Source: Chitinophagales bacterium (lineage in GTDB: Bacteria; Bacteroidota; Bacteroidia; Chitinophagales; UBA10324). From it: DNA of 64,000 bases. The stretch's first letter is position 1. The number at the start of each line of letters is the position of its first letter. Below the pieces are notes generated by a model. It worked only from the letters and a program-made list of their open reading frames with translations. It had not been told where the DNA came from and did not search any database. Position numbers and translations under genes: made by a program. Below are positions 6,110 through 37,529 of this stretch, one piece after another. The stretch spans positions 137,530 to 201,529 of the forward strand of contig JACDDS010000002.1 of the NCBI GenBank assembly GCA_013816805.1. The letters run 5' to 3'.

Positions 6110-6517
6110 ATGCAAAAGATCGAGCATATAGGCATCGCTGTAAAAAATCTGCAATCATCAAATGATTTATATAAACAGATTTTAGGAATAGAGCATTATA
6201 AGTTGGAAGCCGTACCGGCTGAAAGCGTTATTACCTCTTTTTTTAAGGTAGGAGAAAATAAAATTGAGCTGATTGAATCAGCCGATCCGAATGGGGTAAT
6301 ATCAAAATTCATTGAAAAAAAAGGAGAAGGTATCCATCACATTGCATTTTCAGTACAAGATATTTTTGAAGAAATGGAGCGCCTCAGGAATGCAGGATTC
6401 TTATTGCTGAGTGAGCAACCTAAACTCGGAGCAGATAATAAGCTGGTGTGTTTTGTACATCCAAAAAACACAAACGGGGTGTTGGTGGAATTATGCCAGG
6501 AGATAATAAAACGTTAG
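6110..6517 (+). CDS. mce: Methylmalonyl-CoA epimerase
   Basis: VOC-fold metalloenzyme interconverting (S)- and (R)-methylmalonyl-CoA in the propionyl-CoA to succinyl-CoA route. It has 135 residues, the family length. Typical elements are the N-terminal KIEHIGIAVKNL with its metal-binding His, the second EGIHHIAFSV block with another His, and the C-terminal GVLVELCQ glutamate. The N-terminal homology begins at residue 2, so the start is secure despite the close upstream -7 box. A broken acetyltransferase gene follows 7 nt later. The related IcmF-type mutase lies near 55-58 kb. Confidence 0.92.
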   Translation: MQKIEHIGIAVKNLQSSNDLYKQILGIEHYKLEAVPAESVITSFFKVGENKIELIESADPNGVISKFIEKKGEGIHHIAFSVQDIFEEMERLRNAGFLLLSEQPKLGADNKLVCFVHPKNTNGVLVELCQEIIKR

Positions 6518-6524
6518 GTTCTGA

Positions 6525-7315
6525 ATGAAAATAATTGTTGAAACACCACGCCTGATTTTGCGGCAATTTGTACCTGATGATTACTATGATGTTTTCGATC
6601 TGAACAATGACCCGGAAGTAATGAAGTATGTAAGCGGCAAATCTTTTGACTCCTTAGCGGCTGCAAAAAACTTTATGGATCATTACGGGGAATATGAAAA
6701 ATATGGTATGGGAAGATGGGCGGTAATTTTAAAATCGACATATGAATTTACAGGTTATTGTGGCTTAAAATTTCAGGCTGAGTTGGGTGTTGACGGGGAA
6801 GTTAATCTGGGTTACCGTTTTTTTAAAAAGTTCTGGGGACAAAAGATAGCCACGGAATCTTCCCTGGCATCAATAGATTATGGATTTGAACAACTGAATC
6901 TTAAGCAGTTGGGAGAGTGATGAAAGAAAATAGTGCATCTATAAGTGTTCTAAAACACTGCGGAATGCACCTCGTAAAGGAAATGCAGTTTCATGAGCAT
7001 CCCAGCCTGTATTTTCAAATCGATAATATAAATTGGAAAGAAGAACCCTATATTCCTATCGATTGTAATTTTTACGATGAGATGGAGGCAATTGCTACTA
7101 TAAAAAGTGAATGTGAAATTGTCTTTTCAAATTCGGTTGGCGCTACAATAAAGATATGTGGCCATATCAAAACTTTTTTAAACCGGAACGGTGAGGAGTT
7201 TGTGGAGCTTTCAGACAAACGAATGATTCGGCTCGATAAATTAATAAGCGTTAATGGTAAGCTTTTGCCAAAAACCGGTGGGTGTAATCCTGCTTCAGCT
7301 AAGAATAAAATCTGA
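6525..7315 (+). pseudogene. GNAT acetyltransferase (RimJ/RimL type) fused to a Rof-like domain, broken by one frameshift
   Basis: Two overlapping frames make one protein. The first (6525-6920) gives the N-terminal GNAT fold, from ETPRLILRQFVPDDY to FEQLNLKQL. The second, from about 6914, continues with RVMKENSASISVLKHCGM, the acetyl-CoA-binding end of the same fold. Restoring a fourth G at GGG 6911-6913 joins them (QLGRVMKEN). After the GNAT part, the last 80 residues (YIPIDCNFYDEMEAIA to IRLDKLISVNGKLLP) look like the Rho-inhibitor Rof/YaeO: PI-C-x-YD-x-x-E and IRLDK-I/L-S. No ATG separates the two domains, so it reads as a fusion. It could be a real pseudogene, a programmed shift or a base-call error. 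Confidence 0.75.
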
Positions 7316-7477
7316 CACCTTTAAAAATTTTTGACAGCGGCATTGATAACTTCTTTCTAAAGTATAAGAAGGATTTAGAATACCACCCAGGACATTTCAG
7401 GACTCCTTATCTGATGTTTTTACTATTTAATAGTAAGAATTATGAAATTATTGCGGTGTCCGCTTAAAAAATTTGTA

Positions 7478-7485
7478 TATTTTTG
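7478..7485 (+). promoter_or_regulatory. Probable promoter of the large T9SS glycosidase-like gene
   Basis: TATTTTTG matches the -7 consensus TAnnTTTG. A TTG at 7451-7453 lies 24 nt upstream, slightly beyond the usual spacing. It gives a leader of about 40 nt before ATG 7532. Confidence 0.5.
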
Positions 7486-7531
7486 TACCTATTAATGGGT
7501 AACCATATTTGTTACCATAAACTATTAAATT

Positions 7532-10500
7532 ATGAGAGATCTCTTCTTAACTACTGCTTTTCGTGTAATCTTGGCCTGCTTTGCAGGGTCATTGATTTTT
7601 CCCACAAAAAATATATCAGCACAATTAATTACTCCAACCCTGGGTGTGCGAACGCCGCTTAATTCAGATTATATCGGTTACAATGGCATGAATACTATCC
7701 ACAGCGGCGAGTGGTGGAATGAGCCCAATCTTATGAGCCATACGCCACTCTTGAAGCCTAAGACCCTTCGCTATCCTGCAGGATCTCCTGCTAATTGGTG
7801 GGATTGGAAAATAGGATGGTTTATCAACCGGCCCGACCTGCCTCAGAAGTATAAAGACATGACACAGCGGGCAAATACCCTGGAAAACTTTAAAAAAACC
7901 CTGGATAGCTGCCATGCCACTACTATGTTCGATCTCAATATGCTCACAGCTACCCTGCAGGATCAACTGGCCATGCTAAAACATGCTGCCGCAATAGGCA
8001 TGGCTGTTAAGTATGTTGAATTGGGAAACGAATTTTATATTCTTGGTGACAATGGGGGTGCCGGAGATGGCGATTCAGCACTGATTTTACAATATTATCC
8101 TACGGCTGATGTCTATGGCGATTCTGCCACCACCTGGATAGATTCCATACACCATTATTTTCCGAATGCAAAAGTAGCTGCACAGGGCACCTTCAATAAA
8201 AGCTCAAATGATAGAAGGACAACCTGGGATTCACTTACTGCTACCACTTTACGCCACGAGGATGCAATAACCTACCATTGTTATTATGCAGGGGAAAATC
8301 CAGGCACCTTAACCTATGGCGTTTACACAGCCGCGGATATTCCTGAATTTATGTGGAGACCTTTCGATGCCTGGGATGTTCTCAGCCATAAGGACCTTCC
8401 ATTTTTAAGACAGGGAGACGAAGCGTGGATTACAGAATACAATCTCGATGATCTAAAAAAACCGGTCCATGGCTCCTGGGGGCATGCGCTATTCCTTGCA
8501 AATTATACCATGCAATTTCTGCAAGACTGGCGAATAAAAATTGTGGATTGTCATGACATGGTAGGCTCCGCTGAGCATGCTTCTTTTTTTGAAAGCGTGA
8601 GTGGCTTCACCTTTAACACTGATGATGGCTATTTGCCGCCTCCCAACCCTCCTGCAACTAAAAAATGGGGGCTTACCGCGGGGGGAATAATTATGAAGCT
8701 TATGGGAGAAACCTATGAAAAGAAACAATACGTTGCTCCTTTACTTTTCAATACCGGCCCTACCATAACATTTAATGATGAAGCTAATTTGCCTGTAACT
8801 TATCCGGCATTATTTGGCTTTTTATTTTCAGACAATGCTTCTTCCGCAGTTATCGTATTAAATCTTTCCAATAAACCATATAAGATATATACAAAAAACA
8901 TTTTTCCTGCAGGAGGAAACTACGACAAATATGATTCGGATCCATTAAATTATATCGCAGACGATAGCCAGGTAGAGCACATTACCGGGAGCCTAACGGT
9001 TGATAGCACTTGTATTTTATTAAAGCCTTACTCCATCACACGCATCTCAGCAAATACAGTTCCTGCCCCCCCTTCGGCAAAGGTAGATATTGTTGCCAGC
9101 GGGCCTACTACCTTTTGCTTAGGACAAAATGTGCAGCTGGATGCAGGTCCCGGTTATGCAGCTTATCAGTGGTCAACGGGTGCAGCAGGTCCTACTATTA
9201 CAGTAAGTGATTCGGGCAACTATTGGGTTCGTGTCTGGACGGCGTTAAATGGCTATGCTACCGGTGATACAATTGCAGTAAGAATTAATCCACTACCGAA
9301 AAAGCCGCACATTAATCCAAGCGGAGTCCGTGATTTTTGTGACGGTGGAAATGTGGTGCTAAGTCCAAGTTTTGATCTTAGCGGCTATAGTGTTTTATGG
9401 AATAACGGAGCTACCACTCCTTCTGTTACCATTACCATCAGCGGAAATTACTGGCAAACCATTACCGATCAAAATGGTTGTAAGATGAATTCAGATTCTG
9501 AAGTAGTAACTGTTTATGCCCTGCCGCATGCTACTATCTCACCCAAAGGTCCTGTTACTACGTGTAAAGGAACCGCCGTAACATTGGACGCAGGGGCAGG
9601 CTACAAAACATATACCTGGTCTAATGGAAAAGTGGGACAAACCAACAGTATTTCTTCAAGCGGAACGTATTCGGTTACAGTAACGAATGACCATAATTGT
9701 ATTGGAAATTCAACGAATGCAGTTACCGTCTATGTAGATACCATCGCTATACCCATTTTAACCCCGAGTGGTCCCACCACCTTTTGCCAGGGTACTACTT
9801 TTTTTATAAGTGCACCTTCAGGATATAAATATCAATGGCTGAAATCGGGGATCAACATAAACGGAGCCACCAGTCAGGTTTATTATGTTACCGCCAATGG
9901 TAGCTATAAAGTAACCATAACAGATAATAATGGCTGCTTTGCCACTTCTGCTCCTGTCTCCGTTACTATTAATGGGTTGCCTGCCCCAAAGATCACGGTA
10001 GCGGGAGGCATCAGTATTTGCCAGGGTTCAAGCACTACCCTATCGGTTACTTCCACATACAATTCATACTTATGGAACACAGGCGCCACTACTCAAAGCA
10101 TTCCGGTCACTACTGCTGGAAATTACTGGTGCACTATAACCAATTCAAACGGATGTGCAGGCACCACACCTGTGCAAACCATTATCGTTAATCCCTTGCC
10201 TGTACCCGTTATTTCGGCTACAGGTGCCACCTCCTTTTGCAATGGAGGGAGCGTAACGTTAGATGCAGGTTCTGGTTATAATAGTTATAATTGGTCGAAT
10301 GGAAAAAATACGCAAACCATTAGTGCAACCACGACCGGAAGCTACGGCGTAACTGTTACTGATTTAAATGGCTGTTCAGGAACCGCTGTAACTCCAATAG
10401 ACGTCACCGTTTGGACACCTCCGGTTCCGGTTATTACTTCCAATGGTCCTTCTACTTTTTGCCAGGGAGCCAATATTTATTTAACCACCCTATCAGGTTA

Positions 10501-30541: not shown

Positions 30542-33427
30542 ATGCATCATGATCAGGATTTGCAAAAATTTGTTGACTATTGCACAAAGCACATAGCAGG
30601 GGATGAAGCCGGCGAAGCACAAATCTTTCTTGATCATTTCTTTCTTGCCCTCGGTTATGAAGATGGATTAAAAGGTGCGGGTGCCTCGTGTGAGTTTCGT
30701 ATCCATAACGAAAAGCACAAAGCACAATGGTATGCCGATCTGGTTTGGAAGCCGCGCGTGCTCATCGAAATGAAAAAGAGCGGCGAAGATTTGCAAAAAC
30801 ATTTCCAGCAGTCATTTGATTACTGGATGAAGCTCGTGCCTGATCGTCCGCAATATACCATCCTCTGCAACTTCGATGAGTTCTGGATTTACGACTTCAA
30901 CAAAAATATTTATGAGCCGGTAGACCGCGTGAAGTTCGACCAGCTGCCCAAGCGTGAACAATCATTTTATTTTCTTCTTCCCAAACCACTCAATCCTTCC
31001 TTTGGTGCGGATTGGGAAAAAGTATCTAAGGAAGCTGCATATCGTGTAAGCAATGCATACAAGCAGATGACTGACAAGAAACGTGTCGGTGGCACGATTG
31101 CCACTGATGAAGCACTGCGTTACATTCTTCAGTGTGTGGTCGCAATGTTTTCTGAAGACGTGCAGTTACTTCCTGAAAAAATTTTTACCCGAATTCTTGA
31201 GGAGTGTGAAAAGGACAAATCAGTTAATTACGATCTCATCAGCGGACTATTCAGGCAAATGAATAACCCAAAGCCAGCCGCGGCAGGAAAATTTAAAGAT
31301 GTTCAATATTTCAACGGAGGTTTGTTCAGCATCGTTAATGCCATTGATCTTCGGGAACAGGAAATAAATTTGCTCGCAAGTGCAGCACGGCAAAACTGGG
31401 ACGAAGTAAACCCCGCCATCTTCGGCAGCATCTTCGAAGCGGGAATGAATGCCGGTGAGCGGCACACGCTCGGAGCACATTATACCAGTGAAGCTGACAT
31501 TAAGATGATTGTGTATCCCGTGATCGTGCGACCATGGACGGAACGGATTGATAAAGCAGCTTCACTCGACGAATTGTATAATTTGCTGAATGCACTTCGC
31601 CAATTCAAAGTGCTTGATCCTGCTTGCGGCTCCGGAAATTTTTTGTTCGTGGCTTTTCGTGAAATGAAAATTATTGAGAAGCGATTGCTTACTCTTATTC
31701 GCGCACAGTCTGTAAAGCTTGCAGAAGGAAATCGCTTCAAAAAGTTTTTGATGGAGAATCCATTCGTAAGCACGAAGCAATTTTTCGGAATTGATACCAA
31801 TGAATATGCGGTTGAGCTTGCGAAGGTGACGTTGATGGTAGCTAAAGAACTCTCCTTGCTTGATACAGGTGAGGCCTACGACCGCGAGCGTGCATTGCCG
31901 CTCGACAACCTTGATTTAAATATTTTATGTGCCGATGCCTTGTTCACTCAGTGGCCTGAAACCGATGCCATTATCGGCAACCCGCCGTTTCAGAGCAAGA
32001 ATAAAATGCAGCAGGAATTTGGCGCTGAGTACATGAACAAGCTACGCGCCGCATATACAGAAGTTCCCGGTCGTGCTGATTTCTGTGTCTATTGGTTTTA
32101 CAAAGCGCACAGGCAACTGAAAGAAAATTCTTTTGCAGGATTGGTCGGAACGAATACGATTCGCCAGAACTACAGCCGCGAAGGAAGTTTGGATTACATC
32201 ACGCACAACGGCGGAGAAATTATTGAAGCGGTGTCAAGTAAAAAATGGAGTGGTGAAGCAGCCGTGCATGTTTCCCTTGCATGCTGGAAGAAAGGAAAAT
32301 TTGATAGAGTAAAAACTCTTTACACCTCTGAGAACGGCGAAGAACTTTTGCCGCATCGCCTATCCTACATCAACAGCTCCCTCAGTTTGCAAACTGATGT
32401 AACCGCAGCAAAAGTTCTGGAATGCAACAAGCACCCCAAGAAATGTTTTCAGGGACAAACACACGGGCACGAAGGATTTCTTCTGTCCATGAAAGATGGA
32501 TTGAAGATGTTGCAGAAACATTCTGAATACAGCGTAGTACTTAAGCCATTTTTGATTGGCGATGAATTGGTAGGAACTGTTTTTTCGCAACCGGGCAGAT
32601 TCGTAATGGATTTTTCAACTCTTGACAACATCATCGAAGTACAGCAATATAAAGAGCTTTTCAAGATTATTAATGAAAAAGTTTACCCAGCTATTTTGAA
32701 GAAAGCTGAATTGGAGAAAAATGGTAAAATAAAATTAAATGGAATGATTGAGCATCTTGAAACTTGGTGGAAATTGTGGAGATCAAGGCAAGAAATGCTC
32801 GGAGAAATAAATTCATTTGGTAGATATATTGCTTGCTCGCGCGTTTCCAAAAGAAAAATCTTTGAGTTTATTTCACCTGAAATTCATCCCAATGATGCGC
32901 TAACAACTTTTGTATTCAATGATGATTATTCTTTCGGAATTATTTCATCAGAACACCATTGGCGTTGGTGGTTAGAAAGATGCTCAACCATGAGAGGAGA
33001 TTTTCGATACACAACTACAACTGTTTGGGATACCTTTCCTTTCCCACAACATCCCACACAAAAGCAAGTCGAGCAAGTAACCAAAGCCGCAGTTGAGTTG
33101 CGCGCCTACCGAAACAAAATGATCGAGCAATATCGCCTCACGCTGCGCGAACTCTACACCTCACTCGAAACGCCCGGCAAAAATCCGCTCAAAAATTTAC
33201 ATGCCGCGCTCGATGAAGCTGTGATGAATGCTTATGGTTTCTCCTCTGAAAAAGATATTCTTGAACAATTGCTAGAACTCAATCTCGAAGTCGCAGCGCT
33301 GGAAACAAAAGGAAAAGAAGTGACTTCCCCAGGGTTGCCAGTATGGATAAAAAACAAAGAGCAATTTGTGACGGAGGATTGTGTGAGGTTGAGGATAGAT
33401 GAAGGAGAAGGGTTGTTTAAAAAATAA
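30542..33427 (+). CDS. MmeI-like type IIL restriction-modification enzyme
   Basis: A 961-residue single-chain enzyme (MmeI 919) that should cut DNA and methylate adenine. The N-terminal nuclease motif is D66-x9-E76-M-K78, the same D-x9-ExK spacing as MmeI. A helical connector follows, with IFGSIFEAGM and LGAHYTS typical of the family. The methyltransferase has motif I DPACGSGNF near 357 and the amino-methyltransferase motif NPPF near 479. The C-terminal 350 residues hold the target recognition domain. No separate specificity or methylase gene is needed in this class. It is followed 9 nt later by a broken DUF3800 gene, and 1 kb later by a diverged copy of its own 3' end. The frame is intact. 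Confidence 0.88.
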   Translation: MHHDQDLQKFVDYCTKHIAGDEAGEAQIFLDHFFLALGYEDGLKGAGASCEFRIHNEKHKAQWYADLVWKPRVLIEMKKSGEDLQKHFQQSFDYWMKLVPDRPQYTILCNFDEFWIYDFNKNIYEPVDRVKFDQLPKREQSFYFLLPKPLNPSFGADWEKVSKEAAYRVSNAYKQMTDKKRVGGTIATDEALRYILQCVVAMFSEDVQLLPEKIFTRILEECEKDKSVNYDLISGLFRQMNNPKPAAAGKFKDVQYFNGGLFSIVNAIDLREQEINLLASAARQNWDEVNPAIFGSIFEAGMNAGERHTLGAHYTSEADIKMIVYPVIVRPWTERIDKAASLDELYNLLNALRQFKVLDPACGSGNFLFVAFREMKIIEKRLLTLIRAQSVKLAEGNRFKKFLMENPFVSTKQFFGIDTNEYAVELAKVTLMVAKELSLLDTGEAYDRERALPLDNLDLNILCADALFTQWPETDAIIGNPPFQSKNKMQQEFGAEYMNKLRAAYTEVPGRADFCVYWFYKAHRQLKENSFAGLVGTNTIRQNYSREGSLDYITHNGGEIIEAVSSKKWSGEAAVHVSLACWKKGKFDRVKTLYTSENGEELLPHRLSYINSSLSLQTDVTAAKVLECNKHPKKCFQGQTHGHEGFLLSMKDGLKMLQKHSEYSVVLKPFLIGDELVGTVFSQPGRFVMDFSTLDNIIEVQQYKELFKIINEKVYPAILKKAELEKNGKIKLNGMIEHLETWWKLWRSRQEMLGEINSFGRYIACSRVSKRKIFEFISPEIHPNDALTTFVFNDDYSFGIISSEHHWRWWLERCSTMRGDFRYTTTTVWDTFPFPQHPTQKQVEQVTKAAVELRAYRNKMIEQYRLTLRELYTSLETPGKNPLKNLHAALDEAVMNAYGFSSEKDILEQLLELNLEVAALETKGKEVTSPGLPVWIKNKEQFVTEDCVRLRIDEGEGLFKK

Positions 33428-33436
33428 GAAATAATC

Positions 33437-34173
33437 ATGTCCATCTCAGTTAATTATATCTACTGCGATGAAAGCCGTCAAAGTAAAGATCGTTATATGG
33501 TTTTAGGCGGAATCATTATGAACAAGGGAGACATCCCGCAGTTCAATGAAACCATGAAAAAATTCCGAGCTGAAGAGAATATGAATGCTGAATTGAAGTG
33601 GTCAAAAGTTTCATCACAAAAATTAAATGAGTACAAACGGTTTGTTGATTATTTTTTCGCTCTCAATAATACTGACAATATTCATTTTCACAGCATCATC
33701 ATTGATAACCATCAGGTAATCATAGAAAGTTCAACAAAGGAGACAAGGAGCTGGGCTTCTATAAATTCTTTTACCAGTTGCTGCTTCATTGTTTTGGAAA
33801 AGTGTATTGTAACAAAGACAAACCTGTTCGATTTGCAGTTCACCTAGATCAGCGACAGACAAAATATAAATTGAATACTCTCAAGAAGGTTCTCAATTCA
33901 GGGATGAACAAAAAGTTTGAAATTGACTTCAACCCCTTTGTAGCCATTGAGCCTGTAGAATCGAAGCAAAGTGATTTACTTCAAATCAGCGACCTCATCC
34001 TTGGTGCAATGGGATACCAGAAGAACGGATACCCCTTGCTTACCGAATCAAAGAAGAGTAAAATTGAATTGGCAAATTATATTGCGCAAAGTGCAGGGCT
34101 AAAAAATTTAAGTGAAAATACACTCAGAAACAATCAACGATTCACAATATGGAACTTCAAATTGCAGCAATAA
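33437..34173 (+). pseudogene. DUF3800 family protein, broken by one frameshift
   Basis: Two frames form one DUF3800 protein. The N-terminal frame from ATG 33437 has YIYCDESRQ and the ELKWSKV block, and runs to about 33730. The second frame continues from about 33731 with FNKGDKELGFYKFFYQLLLH, then HLDQR and QSDLLQISDLILGAMGY, stopping at 34173. Adding one T at AGTTC (33728-33732) joins them into about 245 residues. DUF3800 is an RNase H-like predicted nuclease often found beside restriction or phage genes. The acidic residues (CDES, LDQR, ISDL) are kept in the two halves. The original frame stops at 33847. Confidence 0.8.
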
Positions 34174-34177
34174 AAAA

Positions 34178-34259
34178 ACCGTCCGTAAAACCTACGCCTC
34201 TTGGCTACCTTTTGCAGGTTTCCCAAACATCATTTGGGTTTTCGGTTTTGCGTGACGGT
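34178..34259. repeat. Imperfect inverted repeat enclosing a second hairpin
   Basis: ACCGTCCGTAAAACC (34178-34192) is nearly the reverse complement of GGTTTTGCGTGACGGT (34244-34259), with one bulge and one mismatch. Inside lies a perfect hairpin, CCCAAA/TTTGGG with a 5-nt loop (34222-34238). It starts 4 nt after the DUF3800 stop. It may terminate transcription or be a mobile-element end; no T run follows. Confidence 0.6.
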
Positions 34260-34377
34260 AATACAAAGGTAGATAGATATTTCTGAATTGCCTGCACTCG
34301 CACGCGACCGCTCCTATCTTCACAGATAACAAATAACTGAAACCCTGGAGTTAGGCGTGGGCAAATGTGCATAACAA

Positions 34378-34464
34378 GGCTTGCCATCAGGGATAAAAAA
34401 CAAAGAGCTCTTTGTAAAAAAGGATTGTGTGAGGTTGAGAGTGGAAAATAAAAAGATGGTTTAA
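34378..34464 (+). pseudogene. Displaced, diverged copy of the 3' end of the restriction-modification gene
   Basis: The frame GLPSGIKNKELFVKKDCVRL and onwards to a TAA at 34462-34464 matches the last residues of the MmeI-like enzyme (GLPVWIKNKEQFVTEDCVRL). At DNA level, 33335-33395 and 34381-34441 align without gaps at an offset of 1046 nt, with about 80 percent of 61 positions equal and two identical stretches of 17-18 nt. A TAA in the same frame lies at 34372-34374, just upstream, so this is a relic and not a gene. Confidence 0.8.
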
Positions 34465-34581
34465 GAATAGCACCTGAGTTTGTATTCATATATTGGTTAC
34501 TTTGGCTGGTTCCAGGATATACAGTGACTGTAAAAATTTTATCTTTAATCGACACAAACTATCTATTCCACCTATTACTAA

Positions 34582-37455
34582 TCAATTCAGTTCCCTTCTT
34601 AAAAATTCCCCTGTAAAACTTTTTTTGTTTTTAGCCACCTCTTCCGGTGTCCCTTCTGCAATAATATACCCTCCGCCGTTGCCTCCTTCCGGTCCCAGGT
34701 CAATGATGTAGTCGGCGAGTTTTATTACGTCCATATTATGTTCGATGATGAGAACCGTATTTCCTTTGTCAACCAGTTTGCTGAGCACTTCCATTAACAC
34801 ACGGATGTCTTCAAAATGAAGACCCGTGGTGGGTTCATCCAGGATATAAAAAGTTGCTCCTGTATCTCTTTTTGAAAGCTCGGTCGAAAGCTTTACGCGT
34901 TGCGCTTCACCACCGCTTAACGTAGTAGCTTGTTGTCCCAGCCGTATATAACCTAACCCAACATCCTGCATCGTCTTTATCTTGCGATGGATTTTCGCCA
35001 TTTTCTCAAAAAATGCTACCGCTTCATCTACCGTCATTTCCAAAACATCGCTGATTGATTTTCCACGGTAGCGGACTTCCAGTGTTTCACGGTTGTAACG
35101 CTTGCCAAGACATTTTTCACATTCTACATATACGTCAGGAAGAAAATTCATTTCGATCAGCTTCATACCACCCCCCTGGCATTCTTCGCATCTTCCGCCT
35201 TTTACATTAAAAGAAAACCTGCCGGTTTTGTATCCCCGGATTTTTGACTCCGGTATCAGTGCAAATAATTCCCTGATATCTGAAAACACAGAAATGTATG
35301 TTGCAGGATTCGATCTTGGCGTTCTGCCAATCGGTGACTGATCAATCTCAATCACTTTATCAATCAGCTTCAGCCCTTCAACTGCCCGGTACTCAAGAGC
35401 CTTTTTTCTGGAGTTAAAAAAATACTGGTTAAGAATAGGATAGAGTGTTTCAGTAATGAGTGAAGATTTGCCACTGCCTGAAACACCCGTTATGCAAATT
35501 AATTTTCCCAAGGGTAAGTTTACTGAAACATCTTTCAGATTATTTCCTTTTGCACCGATCAGGTGAAGAAACTGTCCATTCCCTTTTCTTCTTCTTTCAG
35601 GAACTGTTATTGATTTTTTTCCCGCCAGGTAATCTACTGTGAGTGACGATTGCTCATTAAATTCCTGCGGAGCACCTTCGCTTACCAAATAACCTCCGTG
35701 CTCCCCAGCCCCAGGACCCAAGTCAATTACGTAGTCGGCAGCAAGCATAATATCTTTATCATGTTCTACCACTAACACTGAATTGCCTGCTTCCGTTAAT
35801 TCCTTTAATGCTTTAATAAGGCGCTGGTTATCTCTCTGGTGAAGACCAATGCTTGGCTCGTCCAGAATGTAAGTAATACCGACTAATTGAGATCCGATCT
35901 GAGTAGCTAACCGGATGCGCTGTGATTCACCGCCTGAAAGCGACCGGGATGCACGGTCAAGTGTGAGGTATTCCAACCCTACATCCAGCAGGAACCCGAT
36001 CCGCGAACGGATTTCCTTTATTACTTCCTTTCCAATCAACAGTTGTTTTTCGGTAAGAAGAGCTTCTACTTCATCAAACCATTTTTTCAATTCAGAGATA
36101 CCCAGCTGCGCCAGCTCAGAAATATTTTTTCCTGCAAGTTTGAAAAACAGAGATTCTTTTTTCAGGCGCGTTCCGTTACACACCGGGCAGGCAATGGCGT
36201 CCATAAATTCTTCCGCCCATAGTCTCAATCCGTCAGAGCTCGCCTCACGGTAATACCGGTAAATCATATTGATGAGACCCTCGAATTCGGTAGAATACAA
36301 CTGGTTCCCTGCCTCACTATAACTTAAAGCAACTTCCACTTTCTCTTCCTTTGATCCATAGAGAATCATGTTTAATGCTTCTTTAGGGATTTTTTTTATG
36401 GGAGTTGCAAGAGTAAACTTGTATTTATTTGCAATTGCGCGAACCTGCTGGTAAATGAAATTATCACGCACTTCGCCAAGAGGAATGATACCGCCGTCGT
36501 TTATGCTTTTTGAATCATCAGGCATAATGACATTCCGGTTAATCTCATATACAAATCCCAATCCCTTGCAGTGGGGACAAGCTCCGTACGGCGAGTTAAA
36601 AGAAAAAGTATTCGGTGAAGGCTCTTCGTAGGAGATGCCCGACACGGGATCCATCAATGTCTTGCTGAAGCTTTGCACTTTATTATCATCTACTGACATA
36701 ATCAGCACCAATCCCTTTCCCATTTTCAAAGCAAGGGAAACCGATTTCTCTAACCGTTCTGTGGATTTGTCCGTAATCTCAATGCGATCCACTACAGCTT
36801 CAATATCGTGTACCTTATAGCGGTCTACCTGCATTTTGCTTTTCACTTCCACTATTTCACCGTTTACCCGCACTTTTAAATAACCCTGTTTCCGGATCTG
36901 CTCGAATAGCTCGCGGTAATGTCCCTTTCGGCCTCTTACCAAAGGAGCGAGTAAAACAATTTTTTCATCCCTGAAATTTTCTTTTACATGCTCAAGGATC
37001 TGATCTTCCGTATAGCGAACCATTTTTTCGCCGGTCTCAAAAGAGTAGGCCTCTCCTGCGCGGGCAAAAAGCAGGCGCATGAAATCATAAATTTCTGTGA
37101 TGGTGCCTACTGTGGATCGCGGATTTTTATTTACCGTTTTTTGCTCTATTGAAATGACAGGACTTAACCCTGTGATCTGGTCCACATCGGGGCGCTCCAT
37201 GCCGCCGATGAACTGCCGCGCATACGCAGACAGACTTTCCATGTAACGGCGCTGACCTTCAGCATAGATGGTATCAAAGGCCAGGGAAGATTTTCCGCTG
37301 CCGCTGATACCGGTGATCACCACAAATTTATTCCGTGGGATTTTCACATCAATATTTTTCAGATTGTGCACGCGCGCACCCAGCACTTCAAGGAATTCCT
37401 GTTCCGGCTCACTAATAGGAGAAGCACTCTGTATTTTGGTTTTTGTTACGGGCAT
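34582..37455 (-). CDS. uvrA: Excinuclease ABC subunit A
   Basis: DNA damage-recognition ATPase of nucleotide excision repair. The start is placed at 37455 (MPVTKTKIQ), giving 957 residues (E. coli 940). The longer frame to 37524 begins with TTG inside the -7 promoter box, so it cannot be the start. Two ABC modules: Walker [15 protein letters not shown] near residue 50 and [14 protein letters not shown] in the second half, with signatures [14 protein letters not shown] and [14 protein letters not shown]. Zinc modules are [18 protein letters not shown] and [16 protein letters not shown]. The frame is intact. Confidence 0.96.
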
Positions 37456-37521
37456 TCGGCAGGAAGTATCAAACCTATCTTTGATACCTGTTAAATAAGT
37501 ATGGTGAAATAAAAAAGTCTG

Positions 37522-37529
37522 CAAAGTTA
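37522..37529 (-). promoter_or_regulatory. -7 box (TAACTTTG) of uvrA
   Basis: On the minus strand TAACTTTG (37529-37522) matches TAnnTTTG exactly. It implies transcription from about 37515 and a leader of about 60 nt to ATG 37455. No clear TTTG is seen at -33. Confidence 0.55.

Follow-up and report, generated by a model that had tools for sequence, protein, structure and literature searches.

The locus described here raises the question of how the last codons of a restriction gene came to be repeated behind a second gene that follows it. It lies in a stretch of 64,000 nucleotides (nt), called the window, of the Chitinophagales bacterium assembly GCA_013816805.1 (contig JACDDS010000002.1, positions 137,530-201,529 of the forward strand; genome size 3.57 Mb). 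The restriction gene is located at 30542-33427 on the plus strand; it is intact and codes for 961 amino acid residues. A Pfam profile search found MmeI_N, MmeI_hel, MmeI_Mtase and MmeI_TRD above the cut-off, all in one chain, together with an MmeI_C match of 22.4 bits, under the cut-off of 27, and PADLOC called the product REase_MTase_IIG (E=0). By this domain content it is an MmeI-like restriction-modification (RM) enzyme of type IIG/IIL, for which cleavage and methylation of one strand are predicted. It is followed by a DUF3800 gene, here called the cargo, and beyond the cargo stands a second copy of the 3' tail of the restriction gene.

The upstream, functional copy of the tail spans 33331-33424, that is -97 to -4 relative to the stop codon of the enzyme, and the displaced copy, or relic, spans 34377-34467; both are on the plus strand. 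The segments 33331-33393 and 34377-34439 form a direct repeat of 63 nt without gaps, with an identity of 84% and a spacing of 1046 nt, and one 2-nt gap lengthens the alignment to 93 columns at 76%. When the region 34170-34480 was compared with the whole genome, it matched only itself and the upstream tail copy (E=1.1e-12), and the repeat is therefore neither a chance similarity nor a dispersed repeat. Read in frame, the relic gives GLPSGIKNKELFVKKDCVRLRVENKKMV followed by a stop codon. It is isolated, without the remainder of a gene, and is a decayed copy of the last ~30 codons of the enzyme. Alignment with the tails of ten relatives shows the decay at the protein level: the tail of the enzyme retains a tryptophan common to the nearer relatives as well as the Ser/Thr position, while the relic has Gly and Lys there. 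A first-pass annotation of this DNA had noticed the relic at the same spacing, a gap-free alignment of 61 nt at about 80% identity, and a DUF3800 pseudogene and a double inverted repeat between the two tails. These observations were borne out, the DUF3800 sequence being found in two overlapping frames with one frameshift and the inverted repeat at 34172-34265, where it gives a cloverleaf-like fold on the minus strand.

The same arrangement recurs in other genomes. In a survey based on a search with PF07669, 100 regions were fetched, seven of them MmeI-like loci, and the final 180 nt of every gene were compared with the 8 kb downstream of it at a threshold of E<=1e-8, the window itself being excluded. 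Such a tail scar was found behind 12 of 106 type IIG genes of Bacteroidota, while the remaining 568 genes of these regions gave four cases (Fisher p=1.4e-7); two of the 12 loci, L124 and L125, had been fetched for repeats or DUF3800, and leaving them out gives a less biased 10 of 104. It is also important to note that loci from related genomes are not fully independent, as L226 and L175 (the latter below the threshold) have the same cargo. In the same 106 genes no copy of the tail was found upstream and none of the gene start downstream, nor was the 180-nt segment ahead of the tail (-400 to -220) ever copied downstream. The scar is thus specific to the extreme 3' end and about one type IIG gene in ten carries it in Bacteroidota. 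No description of such a recurrent scar behind genes of this type was found in the open-licence literature searched. A copied 3' end was also seen at one non-restriction gene, a 628-residue gene near a type IIG gene (L187, 3890-5777, minus strand), the copy lying 3.4 kb downstream with an identity of 90%.

The relics consist of the extreme end of the gene only, from about -155 to +40, and comprise about 45-155 nt of tail. In nearly all cases at least one cargo gene, on the same strand, stands between enzyme and relic, with only a short spacer in L207 and L210, and in four loci (L123, L186, L188, and L236) two relics stand in series. The cargo begins at or shortly past the stop codon of the enzyme in most loci and ends near the relic. 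It is wholly different from locus to locus; the families assigned include the DUF1016/YhcG nuclease, RhuM, HNH, HAD, the AAA_13 ATPase and the N-terminal domain of GmrSD, and several cargo genes could be placed in no family. The window fits this class with its tail limits and a cargo ATG placed 10 nt past the stop codon of the enzyme. When some twenty DUF3800 loci from 345 genomes were tested for flanking repeats, only L052 and L054 had them besides the window, and L054 has the anatomy of the window: a type IIG gene, DUF3800, an RNA and a decayed tail. In L125 the order is RM', gene X, an old tail and DUF3800, while in the related L124 DUF3800 follows the RM gene, a comparison that speaks for exchange.

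The manner in which relic and functional tail differ bears on the origin of the scars, for a perfect duplicate that decays afterwards should show differences spread evenly over the codon positions. The differences over all relics are 75:63:123 for the three positions (p=9e-6). Five in-frame relics (L123, L135, L188, L212, and L236) give 15:9:45, with 45 of 69 differences at the third position (p=6e-8); they were chosen after the data had been seen, and a fairer test is given by all relics together. The remaining relics, including that of the window, show a weak effect of 60:54:78 (p=0.02). Differences mostly at third positions imply that the relics showing them diverged as coding sequence, which points to the tail of another functional allele. 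The relics of L125, L198, L226 and L175 also find a higher-scoring match in a tail from elsewhere than in that of the gene in cis. Some enzymes with bodies only 28-41% identical have near-identical tail DNA, with tail scores of 97 against 18 at NPPY for L121/L135 and 128 against 41 for L188/L210; this excess applies to a subset, the catalytic motif being more often better conserved than the tail among diverged pairs overall. Taken as a class, the sequences favour exchange of a gene and its cargo in front of an old tail over simple duplication of a target.

This allows us to propose a history for the window that we regard as probable, if not strongly so: a related MmeI-like gene with its DUF3800 cargo was exchanged into an older type IIG gene, the tail of which was left behind. 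The body of the resident gene would have been replaced almost to its end. The incoming gene would have brought along its own downstream gene, DUF3800 with a convergent RNA, and the right-hand junction would fall within ~100 nt of the resident gene's end, where the conserved 3' tail could provide the short homology for the exchange. Only the tail of the resident would have been retained, to decay once the cargo had cut it off. We infer that alleles were exchanged, in this direction, and that homologous recombination was the agent. The first-pass annotation had likewise suggested that a foreign allele with a DUF3800 module was recombined into the end of an older restriction gene. As a general mechanism this is supported by the frequency of the scars, by their restriction to the extreme 3' end and by the allele-type divergence often seen in the tails, and for the window it remains the best single reading, as a probable history.

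Several results weigh against that history. The two tails of the window differ by 7:5:8 over the codon positions, which gives no codon-position signal, and the best match of the relic is the gene in cis; duplication in situ followed by decay therefore fits the window equally well, and the window alone would not separate the two, so that the case for exchange rests on the class. Strong MmeI-type genes are rarely scarred, with one case (L264) among 37 RM open reading frames (ORFs) of the MmeI-type search. Plasmid-borne relatives outside Bacteroidota, eight type IIG and two MmeI-like genes, gave no tail copy in any of the ten, a second tail being absent from both MmeI-like genes among them. In the genomes and contigs searched neither a near allele nor an empty site of the window locus was found: among 339 genomes of the order, species-level contigs and viral contigs there was no allele of the enzyme above 58% identity, the nearest being at ~56-58%. 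The ten relatives aligned to the tail of the enzyme have best segments 46-56% identical, or 43-48% in the case of two plasmid genes. The closest relatives keep the conserved tail and have no DUF3800 behind the gene. In a genome of the same bacterial family (L153, G015 C19), an N-terminal remnant only of the same MmeI-like enzyme was seen, covering residues 7-296 at 57%.

The fit of the window to duplication speaks for an explanation that we consider rather unlikely, namely that DUF3800 and its hairpin entered at the gene's 3' end and in doing so duplicated ~90 nt of target, the second copy decaying later. RM systems are known to duplicate ~100 bp of target on insertion (PMC3874152), the enzyme gene is still intact, and the 96% copy in L207, which extends 27 nt beyond the stop codon, looks like a recent plain duplication. 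However, copies made in this way should begin identical, yet the five in-frame relics differ mainly at third positions, and several relics match the tails of other genes better. The cargo, being wholly different by locus, makes no single inserting element evident. It is less probable again that two related restriction genes once stood in tandem and that a deletion took away almost the whole of the second, sparing the tail now found beyond DUF3800. Full tandems do exist, as in L282 with two MmeI-like genes, and L121 has an apparent remnant of a tandem duplication. However, if the deletions were random, relics of any length would be expected, and the observed relics start at ~-155 at most, the segment from -400 to -220 never being copied. 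Convergence on a conserved motif, or chance, might be suggested by the fact that the tail encodes a motif, GLP...DC, conserved in the enzyme family. This is practically negligible as an explanation: the DNA identity over 63 nt and the single genome-wide match refute it, and the relic has no gene around it.

Exchange in front of an old tail remains our preferred history. A further suggestion of the first-pass annotation, that exchange between the repeats could alter the specificity of the enzyme, is not supported. The recognition domain spans residues 775-836 and the C-terminal domain residues 840-917, while the repeat begins only at about residue 930, past both. Recombination of tail with tail would delete DUF3800 and leave the recognition domain untouched.

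The DUF3800 gene is located at 33437-34173 on the plus strand (Pfam PF12686; PADLOC PDC-M04A). Its two halves score 34.2 and 24.9 bits against a cut-off of 21 and lie in overlapping frames, owing to one frameshift near 33710-33725. No relatives of it were found in viral contigs. Convergent to it on the minus strand, at 34172-34265, is a candidate structured RNA consisting of a long closing stem, three inner hairpins and a terminal, terminator-like U run (minimum free energy -32.1, z -3.8). Directly upstream of it on the same strand is TACCTTTG, which we take to be a fit to the Bacteroidota -7 element. No DUF3800 RNA of Rfam, DUF3800-VIII (RF03075) included, matched the hairpin at E<=5, and 395 genomes, plasmids and phages gave no relatives of the hairpin and relic segment beyond chance. 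RF03075 scores 45.7-63.7 in L054, L057 and L061; in L054 and L061 this RNA abuts the 3' end of DUF3800 and is read from the minus strand, convergent as in the window, and strong folding signals occur at near-equal offset in L054, L061 and the window (z -7.2, -5.0 and -5.5, respectively). The window hairpin may be an undescribed DUF3800-associated RNA or a bidirectional terminator. An integron-like attC site was considered at 34350 (GTTAGGC) and rejected, without any search for an integrase, as the surrounding 20-mer occurs once only in the genome. To its right the locus is flanked by a gene at 34582-37524 on the minus strand, convergent to the relic, which from our own reading of its translated ORF we take to be uvrA-like; because of this flank there is no more cargo after the relic.

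Other settings of DUF3800 were also observed. In L049 and L067 an apparent tRNA-gene 3' end, near 1392, lies upstream of two related DUF3800 genes, with differing sequence before it. In three genomes (L121, L122, and L123) a helicase gene and a type IIG gene form an operon with a slot between them, occupied by DUF3800 and a second ORF, by a different gene of 164 residues, or by a gene of 132 residues amid tandem repeats of ~205 nt. In L121 (G387 C219) DUF3800 and a second ORF at 6254-7928 have menB on one side and the helicase gene on the other, and a 112-nt repeat at 99% flanks the pair. A 112-nt repeat of 99% identity seen in L052 had suggested DUF3800 as a self-mobile element with a long target duplication. 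This was dropped on a longer region, where the supposed ends of the element turned out to be the helicase gene's 3' terminus and the beginning of the restriction gene that follows. Most likely the repeat in L052 and L121 is a remnant of tandem duplication within the operon.

It is possible, and we suggest it tentatively, that the conserved 3' tail of type IIG genes is a general exchange site in Bacteroidota, at which recombination swaps and stacks whole enzyme bodies, and with them specificities, together with downstream defence cargo, in the order gene, cargo, tail, cargo, tail. If this is true, defence islands would grow behind a restriction gene like cassette arrays without an integrase, and enzymes with unrelated bodies should bear near-identical tails. 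This touches on the assembly of defence islands and on the way in which single-chain restriction enzymes come to differ in specificity from strain to strain. The scar is short and recognisable, so that such exchanges could be counted from sequence alone, and it reveals the cargo travelling with restriction enzymes: DUF3800, DUF1016 nuclease, RhuM, GmrSD, HNH and AAA ATPase.

Insertion of RM systems with a long target duplication was reportedly described by Nobusato et al. in 2000 and by Furuta et al. in 2010. The window resembles such insertions in having direct repeats of ~100 bp around a defence-gene insert next to an intact target gene; the duplication, 93 columns in the window and 45-155 nt at other loci, is of the order of 100 bp found with RM systems (PMC3874152). 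The present loci differ in that every repeat comes from the 3' tail of the restriction gene itself, that the insert is varied cargo, and that some copies differ like separate alleles. For DUF3800 proteins an RNase H-like fold and an association with non-coding RNAs have been predicted (PMC10910872). The adjoining of DUF3800 and a structured RNA is shared with the Rfam families, convergent at the gene 3' end in L054 and L061, while the window hairpin matches no Rfam model. For genes of the PabI family, an event resembling gene conversion, in which one junction was homologous and the other was not, is described as having left a long duplication around the insert (PMC4615327). Exchange of alleles and domains in restriction genes, as domain movement or R-gene replacement, is treated in two reports (PMC3077401, PMC4615327), with shared DNA ends acting as exchange sites, as would be the case here. 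Compared with the exchanges described there, the junction in the present loci would fall within the final ~100 nt and leave a short stretch of tail behind the cargo, and the scar recurs across the phylum.
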